Of a stretch of DNA of 64,000 bases, positions 1 to 55,306 are shown piece after piece (within the stretch, counting starts at the first letter, position 1; each line of letters opens with the position of its first letter). The position numbers were made by a program, and so were the translations under genes. The notes below the pieces were generated by a model. That model did not search any database. It saw only the letters and a list, made by a program, of their open reading frames with translations, and was not told where the DNA came from. The DNA comes from Alphaproteobacteria bacterium. GTDB lineage: Bacteria; Pseudomonadota; Alphaproteobacteria; GCA-2731375. The DNA is taken from NCBI GenBank assembly GCA_021776235.1, contig JAJFGG010000019.1, positions 1 to 64,000 of the forward strand, written 5' to 3'.

Positions 1-75
1 GCGCTGCGCAAAACGCCTACCCGAATGACCTCCACGCGCCATCAAACGGATCTATGTTCTGTGAACGTGGTCTAG
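1..75 (-). mobile_element. Partial family-A palindromic MITE-like element
   Basis: This is nearly identical to the reverse complement of 12051-12125, with about two differences in 75 bases. It holds one 34-bp terminal repeat at 42-75, ending CGTGGTCTAG, and part of the adjacent hairpin, including the arm at 21-41. The rest lies outside the window. No coding potential is seen. It ends in CTAG, as the other copies do. Confidence 0.85.
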
Positions 76-5178: not shown

Positions 5179-6090
5179 CTAGCAGCCGGAATTATCCAGG
5201 CCCGTCGGCAGCTTGGTTTTACAGAGGCGCGCGCCATCCAGAACGGCGTTGGTCAGATTGGCGCCGCTTAGATCGGCCGTGCCCAGATTTGCCCCGGACA
5301 AATTGGCACCCGTAAGATCAGCCTCAACCATGGTCGACCAGGTCAGATTGGTGCCCTCGAAATTGGCGCCGCGCAGATTGGCGCCGGTCATATCGGCCGT
5401 GGGCAGGTCCGCCTGGCCCAGATTGGCGCCCCGCAGATTGGCGCCGCGCAAATTCGCCTCGCTGAGATGGGCGCCGGTGAGGTTGGCGCCGGCCAGATTG
5501 GCACCCGCCAAATTGGTCCTGGTCAAACTGGTACGGATCAAAGTGGCGCCGGCCAGATTGGCACCGCTTAAATCAACCGAATGGAAATTCGCCTCGGTTA
5601 GATCGGCAGCGCTCAGATCAACCTTTTGCGCGATCGCCTGCAACAGATTGGCGCGCCACAAACTAGCCCCGGGGAAAGCGCCGCCGCTCATATTGGCGCC
5701 GCTAAGATCCGCCAATTTCAAAGGCACATCGGCCCCATTGGCGCCGCGCAGGTCGCTCCGGGCCAGGTTGGCGCCGGTGAAGTCGGCGCCCTGCATCCGC
5801 GCCCCGCGCAAATCGGCCCACCACAAGCTGGCGCCAAGAAAATTGGCGCCGCGCAAATCGGCGCGCTGCAAATCGCTCCACCACAAATTGGCGCCGCTCA
5901 GATTTGCGTTCTGCAAATCCGCACCGGCCAACTTGGTCCACCACAGGCTGGCATTGCTCAATTCGCAGCCCGGGCAGCCATTGTTGTCCTTGACCATCCG
6001 GACGCGGGGTTCGTCATAGCCAAACAGCCAGGCCGAGAAGGCGGCAAGCACAACGAATACGGCCAGAAGAATTATGAGAATCTTGCGCAT
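5179..6090 (-). CDS. Membrane-anchored pentapeptide-repeat protein
   Basis: A 303-residue protein with an N-terminal membrane segment (residues about 4-24, ILIILLAVFVVLAAFSAWLF), a short linker with a CPGC pair (39-42), then about 50 A(D/N)LxG-type pentapeptide repeats to the C terminus. The repeats predict a right-handed quadrilateral beta-helix, probably in the periplasm. Tryptophan pairs recur at 50-51, 70-71 and 90-91, exactly one 20-residue coil apart, so they would stack on one face. The final residues include two further cysteines. No partner is evident, since the gene stands alone between the SDR gene and the amidase. The function is unknown. Confidence 0.85.
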   Translation of the reverse strand: MRKILIILLAVFVVLAAFSAWLFGYDEPRVRMVKDNNGCPGCELSNASLWWTKLAGADLQNANLSGANLWWSDLQRADLRGANFLGASLWWADLRGARMQGADFTGANLARSDLRGANGADVPLKLADLSGANMSGGAFPGASLWRANLLQAIAQKVDLSAADLTEANFHSVDLSGANLAGATLIRTSLTRTNLAGANLAGANLTGAHLSEANLRGANLRGANLGQADLPTADMTGANLRGANFEGTNLTWSTMVEADLTGANLSGANLGTADLSGANLTNAVLDGARLCKTKLPTGLDNSGC

Positions 6091-12050: not shown

Positions 12051-12316
12051 CTAGACCACGTTCATAGAACATAGATCCGTTTGATGGCGTGTGGAGGTCA
12101 TTCGGGTAGGCGTTTTGCGCAGCGCGTAGTGGGAACTACGGGCAAGCAGAACAACGCATCCGAATGACCTCCACGCGCCACCGAAGGCCGCGCGTCCCAG
12201 CGCCGTGGCGTCGTTGAAGGTTTTGCCCGTAGTCCCACCACGCGCGGCAACCTTCGCCTAGCCACGAAGCTGGGAAGTGCGGTCAAACGGGTCTATGTTC
12301 TATGAACGTGGTCTAG
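12051..12316. mobile_element. Complete family-A palindromic element (266 bp)
   Basis: Non-coding element with 34-bp terminal inverted repeats (12051-12084 and 12283-12316, one mismatch), both bounded by CTAG. Inside are two hairpins. Hairpin 1 is 12085-12180, with 21-nt arms (12085-12105, 12160-12180) and a small apical GTAGT/ACTAC stem. Hairpin 2 is 12188-12282, whose 21-nt arms pair at about 17 positions. The linker is CCGAAGG. No open frame fits a transposase, so mobilisation in trans is inferred. The CTAG target recalls the IS630 family, known to insert at TA within CTAG. The right end supplies or preserves the TAG stop of the CoA-transferase gene. Confidence 0.9.
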
Positions 12317-20184: not shown

Positions 20185-21252
20185 ATGCGCCTGATTACGG
20201 CACTCGACAAATTTCGCGAAAATGTCTCGGCCGAAACGGTTCTGGTGCGCAGGCGACGGTGGAAAATGATCGACACGGGAGGCGCGGGCCCGGTGCTGCT
20301 GATGCTGCCCGGCACATTGGGCAATGCGGATATTTTCTTCAAACAAATCGGGACGCTGGGCGGGCATCTGCGGATTATCGCCCTGGCCTATGCATTGATT
20401 GACGATGTGGACCTGCTGGCCGGCGATATCAATCGCCTGCTGCAAAGACTGGCCATCCCGCGCGCCAGCATACTAGAGCATTTCCGGGCTATTCTGGGTC
20501 ATTTGACCGTCCACCAAGGCCCCGTGGGTAGGCGTGGTTTGCCGGTCGATGTGGGACATCGTCCGAAAACCGCAACGCCGCCACGGGGCCTTGGTGGACG
20601 GCCTTCGGTGGCGACCCTAAGCCATTCGGATGCGTTGCGCCGCTAGCCCGATGTACCACATCGCGCTACGCGACGCGCCTACCCGAATGGCTTAAGGTCG
20701 CCATCAAATGACCCACAATAGCCCGGAAGTGCTCTAGGCTCGTCGTTCGGTGGTTTTATGGCCCAGGTATTCGCCGAGCGTTATCCGGCCCGGGTCGACA
20801 CGCTGTTCATCAGCAACTCGCTGACGGATGTCAGTCTGATCGCTCCGGCCTTTCCGCCCGCCGACGAACTGGCGAAGATGCCGCCCGGGGCCTTGCGGGC
20901 GCAAATCTCGGGCCAGATGGCCAACTGGGACGCACCGGAAAAAATCTTTGTCGAACTCAGGCAGCTTCTCTTGCGGGAGTTGGCCCGTAATCTGCCGCCG
21001 AGAGCGCCGAAACTACGTCTGGCAGCCCTTTTGCGGCGCCGCGTGCCGCCACTCCCAGCCGTGCCGGACAGTCGGATCGTCATCATTGATTGTCACGACG
21101 ATCCGCTGATCCCGCCCGCCGTTCGCGATGATGTCCGGGCGCGGCACCCCGCCGCCGAACAGCACAGCTTGCTCTCGGGCGGGCACTTCCCTTATCTCAC
21201 GCGAAGTGCTGCCTATAACGACATTCTGACCAAGCGGCTGTTGGCAAATTAG
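20185..21252 (+). pseudogene. Maspardin-like alpha/beta hydrolase, split by a palindromic element
   Basis: The 5' part (20185 to 20475) encodes LLMLPGTLGNADIFFKQI and ends RASIL. The 3' part resumes after the element as GSSFGGFMAQVFAERYP, holding the nucleophile elbow GSSFG, and continues to a late GGHFPYLT with the likely catalytic histidine. Joining ATACTA with GGCTCG restores one uninterrupted reading frame. The spacing and the sequence order resemble maspardin (SPG21) and related hydrolases. The net insertion is 261 bases, so the frame is kept, but the element brings a TAG at 20644-20646. The 3' half could start at the ATG at 20758, but without its core strands it should be inactive. Confidence 0.88.
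20473..20737. mobile_element. Complete family-B palindromic element (265 bp)
   Basis: Terminal inverted repeats of 34 bp (20473-20506, 20704-20737; two mismatches) are bounded by CTAG on both sides, and one CTAG equals the host target in the hydrolase gene. Hairpin 1 is 20507-20601, with perfect 21-bp arms (20507-20527, 20581-20601) and an apical CGATGT/ACATCG stem. The linker is CCTTCGG (20602-20608). Hairpin 2 is 20609-20703, with 21-nt arms with one mismatch and the same apical stem. Every base is thus accounted for as repeat, hairpin or linker. No transposase is encoded. Confidence 0.93.
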
Positions 21253-21261
21253 AAGACCGGC

Positions 21262-21816
21262 CTATTCCCGTTCCTTTTCGAAGGAACTCTCTTCCTTTGG
21301 AAGCTCATGGAGAAAAATTTCCTCGCAAATCCGACCCGTGAATTTTTCGGATAGGTCTTCTCCTGGGTTTGACGTGATTGCAAGGCCAAGTAGGCCGCCG
21401 CCTGCGTTCCCAACTTCGATATAGTATTCAGCCAACTTGGCTCCCTCCGGCAATTTTACAAGCCTGACGGAGCCCGCCATATTGGTAACGTCACCAACCA
21501 GCATGACGGTAACTGGATTAGCTTCCTTGAAGTTATCGATGCGAACGGCAAGGTCGATATCAGTGCTGCCCTTTGCGCATTGATCAAGACCTGCGGTCAA
21601 CGCTATCTGCACTTGAGCGGCCAGGTCAGGGGGCGCAGTGGGCGCGGCTATTTTGACGGTGATATTGCGCACATTCAGCGTTTTGACATCGATGCCGGGA
21701 ACGGGTTTTAAGGCTGTTACAGCCGGCACACAGGCGCCGAGCGTTAATGCGGCCAACGCCGTCATGGCCGCGAATTTGGCTTTTTTCGGTTTCGTAATGA
21801 AAGTTGAAGTTGCCAC
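21262..21816 (-). CDS. Predicted lipoprotein of unknown function
   Basis: A 184-residue protein with a basic N terminus (TKPKKAKF), a hydrophobic segment and the lipobox LTLGAC, giving a predicted lipid-modified Cys29. The mature domain contains TLNVRNITVKI and a DIDLAVRIDNF segment followed by hydrophobic VTVMLVGDVTNM and LLGLAIT stretches. The pattern resembles small outer-membrane lipoproteins of the DUF4136/DUF4410 kind, but I cannot assign a family. It is transcribed divergently from the secreted protein at 21924, with about 100 AT-rich bases between. It ends nine bases from the end of the disrupted hydrolase. Confidence 0.68.
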   Translation of the reverse strand: MATSTFITKPKKAKFAAMTALAALTLGACVPAVTALKPVPGIDVKTLNVRNITVKIAAPTAPPDLAAQVQIALTAGLDQCAKGSTDIDLAVRIDNFKEANPVTVMLVGDVTNMAGSVRLVKLPEGAKLAEYYIEVGNAGGGLLGLAITSNPGEDLSEKFTGRICEEIFLHELPKEESSFEKERE

Positions 21817-21923
21817 AGTTTTTTACTCGCCGGTTAGGGTACATTTACAAACTTGGAAGCTACAAGTATAGTATCGCATTAGCTAGTGTTTTTACGCGAA
21901 TTTATGCTTATGAGCGCAAGATA

Positions 21924-22916
21924 ATGAGTGTGGTTTTGTTTAGATTATCATTTTGCGTATTAATTTTCCTGGCGACTCTCCCATCATTTGCACCCAAGGC
22001 TGACCAGGCCAAGGCTCTAGATGATGGCACCAGCAAATCTGCTGGCATGCCGGCAGCGCAGGGAATAACGCCCGGTATGTCGGCGATCGGCTACCAAATA
22101 GAGGGCTTGGATCAATTTCAGGGCACGGCTTCGTCGATAACGGTTGCCTGTAGCGACGTGCAATATGGCTTCGATCATTCCAACTTGGTAGCGCAGCGCA
22201 CCATAGAGTCACTAAGACGCGCCGGCGTATCCGACAATTCGAACCTTACGCTCAGCTTCAAAAATGTCCGGATCGTACTTCATTGCCATGTCTCTGGATT
22301 TATCGAGAATTTTTGTATTGCCGAGAGCGAAATATCACTTGTCCTGAAGTATCCAAGCATAAAACAGGATGAAATTTCGCGGCAATACTCAAGCGACGCT
22401 TTAAGTCGGAGTCCGCCCGAACTCCGATGCTTGGAGGGGCCGAATGTGATCGAAGACGCCTTCATGGGTGCACTGGATGCGTTGCTCATAGATTTGAATC
22501 GTGACGTCAAGACCGTAAACTTCTTACGGGCCGATCCCTCCAAAAAAAGATCAGATGTTTCTAAAACCCCAATGGCGGCGCAATTGCCCAAATTTGCGGC
22601 ACCGGCTGATGTAAATGTCTTTCAAGGGCAATGGGAAAGTGCCGCAGTTCAATGTGGCATGGACGATTCAGGCTACAGTCGTCATATCCGGATCATGCTA
22701 AGCGTCGACGAAAATATCGTCAGAGGACACCTGCGACAATATAGCTTCTCTGACTCGAACGTGAGCGATGAGTTTTCATCTCCCGTTCCAGGTAATCTGG
22801 TTCTTCAGAAACAACTGGATCACGTAGACGGAGAGCTTTTTCTGAAATTCGATCGGGTCGCCACGACGGTGACCGGGTCTTTTGACGGTTGCGCGTTGTA
22901 CCTTTCGCGAAGATAG
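21924..22916 (+). CDS. Predicted secreted protein of unknown function
   Basis: A 330-residue protein beginning with a hydrophobic signal-like segment (VVLFRLSFCVLIFLATLPSF). The exported part has several cysteines (about eight in all) and no domain I recognise. The C-terminal third, from VFQGQWESAAVQCGMDD to FDGCALYLSRR, looks like a small beta-rich domain closed by cysteines. The codon use is AT-richer than the neighbours, with frequent ATA, TCA and AAA, which suggests transfer. An upstream in-frame start at 21804 would overlap the divergent lipoprotein gene and was rejected. The TAG stop coincides with the end of a truncated palindromic element. Confidence 0.6.
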   Translation: MSVVLFRLSFCVLIFLATLPSFAPKADQAKALDDGTSKSAGMPAAQGITPGMSAIGYQIEGLDQFQGTASSITVACSDVQYGFDHSNLVAQRTIESLRRAGVSDNSNLTLSFKNVRIVLHCHVSGFIENFCIAESEISLVLKYPSIKQDEISRQYSSDALSRSPPELRCLEGPNVIEDAFMGALDALLIDLNRDVKTVNFLRADPSKKRSDVSKTPMAAQLPKFAAPADVNVFQGQWESAAVQCGMDDSGYSRHIRIMLSVDENIVRGHLRQYSFSDSNVSDEFSSPVPGNLVLQKQLDHVDGELFLKFDRVATTVTGSFDGCALYLSRR

Positions 22917-23020
22917 GGCCTTTCCGAGCTATTCTGGGTCATTTGACCGTCTACCAAGGCCCCGTGGGCAGGCGCGGTTTGCAGGTCGATGTGGGACATC
23001 GTCCAGGAACCGCAACGCCG
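22913..23020 (+). mobile_element. Truncated family-B palindromic element
   Basis: These 108 bases align without gaps to 20473-20580 with about a dozen substitutions. They cover the left terminal repeat and hairpin 1 up to the base before its 3' arm, where similarity stops. The first tetramer reads ATAG in place of CTAG, and its TAG is the stop codon of the upstream gene. The right half of the element is missing. Confidence 0.85.
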
Positions 23021-53739: not shown

Positions 53740-55236
53740 ATGGACTTTATCTTCGCTGGTTTCGACCAAATCTTTCATCTGCAGAACATACTGCTGATGG
53801 TGGGTGGTCTGGTCATTGGTATCGTTATTGGCGCCATTCCAGGACTAAATGTGCCTCTGGCCGTGGCCCTGGCCTTACCGTTCACCTACCACATGCCGCC
53901 CTTGGCGGGGCTATCCATGTTGATCGGCATCTACAAGGGCGGAACCCATGGCGGATCCATATCGGCCATCCTGATCAATGTGCCGGGCGCGCCGGCGGCG
54001 GCGGCAACCGCCCTGGACGGCTACGCCCTGGCCCGCCAAGGCAAGGCCGGCAAGGCCTTGAAACTTTCGATTTACGCCTCCGTGTTCGGTGAAATCGTAT
54101 CCGATATCGCGCTGATCCTGTTGGCCGCACAGTTGGCGAAGATCGCAACGACATTTGGCCCGGCGGAATTTTTTGCCCTTGGCCTTTTTGCGCTGACGAT
54201 CATTGGTTTCGTCTCCGGCGACAGTCTGATCAAAGGCGTGATTGCGGGCTGCATGGGTTTATTGTTCGCCACCGTCGGCATGGATCCGCTGGAGAGCATG
54301 CCGCGCATGCATTTTGGCTTCTACGAATTGACCGGCGGGCTGCATTTTATCGCCATGATCATTGGCCTTTTCGCCATCTCCGAGGCCCTGATCCAGATCG
54401 AAAACAGCCTGAAGACGTCGGCCAGCCGCACGGTCATCGAAATATCAAAAAAGGGAGATGACAATCGGGTCACATGGGCCGAATTCAAGATGGTCTTTCC
54501 GACCATGCTGCGATCAGCGCCTTTGGGCGTTTTCATCGGCGCCATACCCGGTATCGGCTCCTCCATCGCCGCCTTTCTGGCCTACGGCATGGCGAAAAAC
54601 ATGTCGAAGCAACCGGAAATGTTCGGCAAGGGCGCCATTGAGGGCGTCGCGGCGGCAGAGTCCGCCAATAATGGCGTTTGCGGCGCCACGTTCATACCTT
54701 TGCTTACCCTGGGGATTCCGGGCGATGTCATTACCGCCATCATGCTCGGTGCCTTTATGGTACATGGTCTGATACCTGGCCCGACGCTGTTTACGGAACA
54801 GGGCAGCTTCGTCTCCGCCTTCATGATCGGCATGCTGATTACCTCGTGCCTGCATTTGTTCGTAGCGCTGATCGGACTGCGCGGCTTTATCCAGGCCATA
54901 AAGCTCAAGCGTTCCTTGCTGTTCCCCATCGTCATCGTACTTTGCATCACCGGGACTTTCGTTGCCGGAGGCGGCCAGTTCCCCATTTATGTCATGCTGG
55001 GCATGGGCATACTGGGCTACCTGATGATCAAATTCGGCTTCCCCATTCCGCCTTTGCTGATTGGGTTTATCCTGAGCCCAATGATCGAAGACGGCCTGCG
55101 CCAGGCGCTATTGATCTCGGATGGTAATCTGGACATTTTCTATGGCCGGCCCATCGCCATGGGCTTCCTGGTGATGACGGCGGCGCTAGTGGTCTGGATT
55201 ACCTGGAAACAACTTCGCGGTCAGTCCAACTCATGA
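53740..55236 (+). CDS. tctA: TTT large permease subunit TctA
   Basis: A 498-residue permease with about eleven or twelve hydrophobic segments. GAIPGLNVPLAVALALPFTY and the repeated GAIPGIGSSIAAFLAYGMAK are the two internal-duplication signatures of TctA, and YKGGTHGGSISAILINVPG is the conserved loop. It carries the substrate across the inner membrane with a cation gradient, taken from TctC. The gene starts 28 bases after tctB. Its TGA stop lies inside the first copy of an 18-bp tandem repeat. Confidence 0.93.
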   Translation: MDFIFAGFDQIFHLQNILLMVGGLVIGIVIGAIPGLNVPLAVALALPFTYHMPPLAGLSMLIGIYKGGTHGGSISAILINVPGAPAAAATALDGYALARQGKAGKALKLSIYASVFGEIVSDIALILLAAQLAKIATTFGPAEFFALGLFALTIIGFVSGDSLIKGVIAGCMGLLFATVGMDPLESMPRMHFGFYELTGGLHFIAMIIGLFAISEALIQIENSLKTSASRTVIEISKKGDDNRVTWAEFKMVFPTMLRSAPLGVFIGAIPGIGSSIAAFLAYGMAKNMSKQPEMFGKGAIEGVAAAESANNGVCGATFIPLLTLGIPGDVITAIMLGAFMVHGLIPGPTLFTEQGSFVSAFMIGMLITSCLHLFVALIGLRGFIQAIKLKRSLLFPIVIVLCITGTFVAGGGQFPIYVMLGMGILGYLMIKFGFPIPPLLIGFILSPMIEDGLRQALLISDGNLDIFYGRPIAMGFLVMTAALVVWITWKQLRGQSNS

Positions 55237-55306
55237 AGAGGGGCCAACTCATGAAGAGAGGCCAATTCATGAAGAGAGGCCAATTCATGAAGAGGGGCCA
55301 ATTCAT
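55228..55306 (+). repeat. 18-bp tandem repeat at the tctA 3' end
   Basis: Four copies of an 18-bp unit (AACTCATGAAGAGGGGCC with variants AATT and GAGAGG) run 55228-55245, 55246-55263, 55264-55281 and 55282-55299, with a partial seven-base fifth. The first unit includes the last tctA codons and stop. Each unit contains TCATGA. It lies between two convergent genes; no hairpin terminator is seen. Confidence 0.92.

Follow-up and report, generated by a model that had tools for sequence, protein, structure and literature searches.

A probable IS630-type MITE with a T-shaped fold interrupts a hydrolase gene in an alphaproteobacterial genome

We analyzed a 64,000-nt stretch of an alphaproteobacterial genome (the window) and found that one of its hydrolase genes is split by a short palindromic unit that is very probably a non-autonomous MITE of the IS630/Tc1-mariner type, and whose T-shaped fold, formed in DNA, may in addition, with less certainty, aid the element itself. 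The sequence shows that a unit of 259 bp, bounded by terminal inverted repeats of 30 bp, entered the TA of a CTAG in the intact gene, the TA being duplicated. Binding of the 30-bp ends by an IS630-family transposase acting in trans, followed by cut-and-paste transfer, would have moved it there. Less certainly, the pairing may have been kept since the DNA folds on itself, either as a cruciform or as a single strand in replication or transposition, and this fold might help the element, for instance by bringing both ends together. Taken on its own, the insertion in the window is an ordinary gene disruption; it marks the exact start and end of the element (Table 1).

Table 1. Features of the window, with positions, strand and the observations on which each is based
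Feature	Position	Strand	Basis
T-shaped element (probable IS630-type MITE), 259 bp, 5'-GAGC...GCTC-3'	20476..20734		Fold, copy alignment, boundaries over copies
Left TA of the target duplication (target CTAG; C20473 is a target base)	20474..20475		Copy boundaries and targets
Right TA of the target duplication (G20737 is a target base)	20735..20736		Copy boundaries and targets
30-bp terminal inverted repeat at the left end, forming one side of the outer stem	20476..20505		Complementarity, folds, 22/28 to the L098 IS630 end
Right terminal inverted repeat, 30 bp	20705..20734		Complementarity, folds
Arm 1, 95-nt hairpin, reverse orientation in R1 (97.9 bits)	20507..20601	-	Fold, R1
Linker between the arms, 6 nt	20602..20607		Fold
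Arm 2, 97-nt hairpin, forward in R1 (20609-20703, 104.1 bits)	20608..20704	+	Fold, R1
Hydrolase 5' part, ending in the Leu codon CTA ahead of the nucleophile elbow	20185..20475	+	Joined frame, orthologue L032, Pfam Abhydrolase
Hydrolase 3' part, from the Gly of GSSFGGF	20737..21252	+	Joined frame, orthologue, Pfam
In-frame TAG within the element, closing the interrupted frame	20644..20646	+	Reading of the joined frame
Second complete T element, GACC...GGTC subfamily, in a CTAG	12054..12313		Sequence matches, fold
Third copy, truncated: left end and most of arm 1	22914..23020	+	Sequence matches, R1 model
GACC-type copy fragment at the contig end	1..75		Sequence matches

To reconstruct the interrupted gene, window positions 20185-20472, a single CTAG and positions 20738-21252 were joined, yielding 807 nt with one open frame of 268 aa in which RASIL is followed directly by GSSFGGF, just as the initial annotation had proposed for an excision leaving one CTAG. 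Its statement that the insert keeps the frame also held: the net insert is 261 bp, so that the reading frame continues into the element and is closed by the TAG at 20644. The joined protein matched Abhydrolase_1 (8.7e-11) and Abhydrolase_6 (1.7e-10) in Pfam, whereas the 5' half taken separately had no family match and the 3' half a weaker one; its best PDB matches were esterases (~9e-8). Pfam gave only these generic families, and the earlier designation of the protein as maspardin-like found no confirmation.

An intact orthologue (L032) was retrieved from G015, a genome of another family, with 42% identity over 257 aa, and adjoins the same FAD oxidoreductase as the window hydrolase. It spans the join ungapped (SILGSSLGGF), as had been predicted of an uninterrupted relative, but the single CTAG also predicted there was not borne out: its DNA at the insertion site reads CTGG, with a synonymous Leu codon, versus CTAG in the window lineage. 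In G006, which belongs to the same genus as the source genome, the locus is syntenic but the hydrolase (L033:1447-1641) lacks its middle ~0.7 kb, insertion site included; the ends of this internal deletion lie near a short direct repeat (CCTTTCCGCCCGCCG), and it is an independent loss of the same gene. No empty site for the window copy was found within the genus, G006 lacking the region and the other members searched giving no match; the hydrolase gene is thus dispensable in the group. The location of the insert at the elbow is simply where a rare CTAG happened to lie.

The proposed order of an intact gene followed by an insertion was supported both by this syntenic, uninterrupted orthologue and by exact empty sites of other copies. 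For the latter, we joined the flanks of seven other copies and searched them in sister genomes, obtaining an unbroken match at four loci where the source genome gave two pieces. At the L004 locus, G010 and G006 aligned ungapped over 140 nt with a single TA, and at the L011 locus a single TA was present in G003, G004 and G007; the empty sites at L023 and L059 are less clean than these, and for the copy in the window's hydrolase the 42% orthologue with CTGG is the sole source of an empty site.

The boundaries of the element were defined from its complementarity and from the sites occupied by its copies. The 34-nt arms at 20473-20506 and 20704-20737 are 94% complementary, and the predicted folding energy of the entire insert is -192.6 kcal/mol; 200 shuffles gave -98.2 +/- 5.5, none reaching so low a value (z = -17.3). 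No transposase-size ORF was found inside the 259 bp. A TA was present on both sides in 53 of 58 complete copies drawn from more than 10 genomes, a proportion that is somewhat biased since copy boundaries came partly from a TA-based finder; the bases outside the TA are free of this bias. The targets of these 53 copies were CTAG (33), CTAA (11), TTAA (6), TTAG (2) and ATAT (1), with 52 of the 53 fitting YTAR, compared with a background, over 453 kb of the source genome, of 2.1% CTAG and 10% YTAR among TA sites. Because copies occur in CTAA, TTAA, TTAG and ATAT sites, which can be reconciled only with G...C ends and duplication of the TA, we placed the element at 20476-20734. Of the two forms of duplication first suggested, TA with G/C termini therefore stands, and the four-base CTAG is ruled out, CTAG being the preferred target. 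A few copies had seemed to lack the TA on the right side alone, but this asymmetry disappeared after the copies had been oriented.

We then compared these ends with those of IS630 copies. Of 11 members of the genus that were searched, the source genome G000 among them, 9 carried genes of the IS630 family (PF13358), and the genus has a complete IS630 copy of 1048 bp with GAGC ends at a CTAG (L083). The end of the window subfamily matched the end beside a decayed IS630 gene of the same genus (L098) at 22/28 nt, with 0/2000 shuffles as good, and the L039-type end matched the L083 end at 20/28. GAGC-ended IS630 copies at TA were also found in G240, G021 and G118. The draft assembly of G000 yielded no cognate transposase, its sole PF13358 hit having different ends, and no significant match to an IS630 end was obtained for the GACC, GTGTCC, CCAAG and L046/L047 classes of terminal repeat. 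Among characterized elements, ISY100, a relative of IS630, uses cut-and-paste transposition with TA as its target (PMC2170065), and IS630 itself favours the TA in CTAG, going by the title of reference 29 in that article.

Folding each copy separately gave the same layout in most of them, with an outer stem of 30 bp, arm 1 at 32-126, a 6-nt linker and arm 2 at 133-229, and this layout recurred in subfamilies with unrelated ends; in shorter forms, of 157 and 180 bp, all or part of one arm has been lost. Arm 2 is related to arm 1 in inverted orientation; as two head-to-head hairpins, they give the top strand the order A-B-B'-C-C'-A' and hence a T shape. Using R1, a covariance model of one arm whose E-values are rough, we detected 143 arms in the source genome, including 47 adjacent pairs that all run minus then plus (head-to-head), with a linker of 7-9 nt by R1 coordinates in 45 of them. 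Of 289 genomes of the class, 31 had R1 arms; elsewhere in the phylum R1 gave hits in 15 genomes, where some single hits may be chance. Inspection showed T geometry together with terminal repeats in ~20 families of the class and, beyond the class, in four genomes (G358, G418, G450 and G472). Overall it comprises a 30-bp stem, two ~95-nt arms and a 6-11-nt linker, for a total of 253-271 bp, with ends of the classes GAGC, GACC, GTGTCC, CCAAG (by TATA-like sites), GCCC...TTTCTCAC, GTACCC and GTGTG. No TA-flanked palindromes were found in 200 kb of G012 or in 100 kb each of G023 and G026, the two element-size indels in ~0.6 Mb of G006 were not T elements, and a plasmid collection gave no match to the element. 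As a set of bacterial mobile elements, T elements are widespread and apparently undescribed, and wholly different sequences among them take the same shape; our search of the open-access literature found no published description of such an element.

In order to assess how the pairing is kept, we compared 26 arms of 13 elements and found double changes in 28 of 30 pairs, with a covariation score of 0.605 versus 0.181 for shuffled and at most 0.175 for slid alignments. Mispairs were divided almost equally between G-T and A-C, both in the arms (30 and 35) and in the outer stem (43 and 44). Selection at the RNA level would favour G-U, so this near-equality argues that pairing is kept in DNA. The arms might nonetheless act as RNA, with transcribed stems that affect adjacent messages by protection, cleavage or termination, a role proposed for Correia/NEMIS; the very stable predicted fold, the intergenic position of most copies and the action of other bacterial MITEs on messages (PMC2229807) would all suit such a role. 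We consider it improbable, since it predicts that G-U is tolerated and A-C rejected, and no Rfam family reached its gathering score. Weak Rfam matches to microRNA and viral families lay far below their gathering scores and were judged to be chance hairpins. A weightier alternative, which is possible but which we doubt, holds that the T shape is functionless, inherited from one ancestral palindrome whose arms stay paired through template-switch correction of quasi-palindromes; it opposes only the role proposed for the fold, not the IS630-type insertion. Such correction would also yield the dominance of double Watson-Crick changes and the equality of G-T and A-C, and some copies (L116, L300) are near-perfect palindromes end to end. 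It should, however, also erase the unpaired stretch of each arm (alignment columns 22-30 and 71-78), yet this stretch stays at the same place in the consensus fold across families, and the lengths of arms and linker are constant in unrelated sequences. Moreover, private changes of single copies within G000 are mostly uncorrected, with 30 broken singles versus 6 compensated pairs; as these changes mostly break pairs, copies decay after insertion, paired changes building up in lineages that are still moving. Selection for DNA folding and template-switch correction are both possible, and the conserved unpaired stretch favours selection.

Two further alternatives concern the insertion itself. The mover could be another TA-targeting enzyme, such as an IS427-like transposase of the IS5 family, whose relatives likewise use YTAR/TA targets, and PF13358 was missing from 11 of the 22 other genomes with T elements. 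This we regard as a shade less probable even than a role as RNA, given that the duplication is TA and not 4 bp, that GAGC-ended IS630 copies lie at CTAG in the genus and that GAGC-ended ones exist in other families as well. That the 265 bp belong to the native gene, or come from an artefact of assembly, is so unlikely that it hardly needs weighing: the contigs do belong to a draft assembly and nothing else was found in its favour, whereas the orthologue is uninterrupted, the many copies have unrelated flanks, and the empty sites of other copies are seen in separately assembled sister genomes.

The source genome contains ~25 near-full-length copies of the window subfamily, counting those cut by contig ends, as well as a second subfamily with GACC ends. 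Besides the hydrolase insert, ~23 sites in this genome matched the element either for most of its extent or as far as the end of a contig. We examined 26 complete copies of this genome, using open frames across the join as a rough criterion, and a clear interruption of a recognisable gene was seen for the window copy alone, the rest looking intergenic. Copies lie at many contig ends (window 1-75; C38, C1, C172 and C44 of G000) and contigs of these draft assemblies often end in T elements, so the element probably breaks assembly. Several other observations were made along the way. The ORF at 21804-22916 takes its stop TAG from the left TA-G of the truncated copy at 22914-23020. A T element with a third end type (GTGTCC) lies at L061:1826-2088, ~60 bp from a GACC-type copy. 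At L152:18886-19139 (G000:C140:178886-179139), a 254-bp TA-flanked palindrome with different ends, CCAAGGTGCGGTGATAGAGACC, resembles the T elements of G208 and G092 yet folds as one hairpin, and at L145:17398-17621 another palindromic repeat, not a T element, is missing from the syntenic place in G006. The window also contains a run of 15-nt repeats at 5224-5936, which probably encodes pentapeptide-type repeats, and four units of an 18-bp tandem repeat at 55223-55306.

Beyond the window, it is quite possible, if still short of probable, that T-shaped MITEs are an old, widespread class of Pseudomonadota elements that join one conserved core of two DNA arms to terminal repeats belonging to various IS630-type elements, and that the folded DNA works in mobility, for example through extrusion of an end-pairing cruciform or through the folded single strand being captured when replication forks pass. 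A single geometry is found across sequences so divergent that ordinary similarity searches miss most members. It offers a testable case for DNA folding in the movement of bacterial transposons, and a structural signature with which unannotated mobile elements and broken genes could be found in many proteobacterial genomes.

Judged by its sequence, the T element has the characters of an IS630-type MITE; its closest known counterpart is RUP. RUP of Streptococcus pneumoniae, a MITE proposed to be moved by IS630-Spn1, is likewise a short, non-autonomous, multi-copy unit with TA targets and ends like those of a resident IS630, but it is 107 bp long, has another host and other ends, and is not reported in that source to have a two-arm T shape (PMC2229807). 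IS630 of Shigella sonnei and ISY100 share the TA duplication, with IS630 favouring the TA of CTAG by the title of reference 29 in the source (PMC2170065); unlike the T element they are autonomous, carry a transposase gene and lack internal arms. Correia/NEMIS of Neisseria likewise folds stably and is a small MITE whose terminal repeats lie at TA, but measures 107 or 155 bp and is proposed to be an RNase III target as RNA, the T geometry not being reported for it (PMC2229807). CIR of Caulobacter and other alphaproteobacteria comes close in its two long inverted repeats, equivalent to two arms joined by a linker, and is described as having a GANTC site in an arm loop, unclear mobility and no end-to-end stem (PMC2229807). 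T elements, with their 30-bp ends and TA duplication, are set apart from CIR by this description. At the arm tips of the window copy no GANTC was seen, and the 30-bp outer stem is present. The terminal repeats of adeno-associated virus have the same A-B-B'-C-C'-A' order and a T-shaped fold; the topology is alike and no relationship is claimed, these repeats being a viral replication origin and not a transposon of this kind. In geometry, T elements are unlike the MITEs that the reviewed literature describes.
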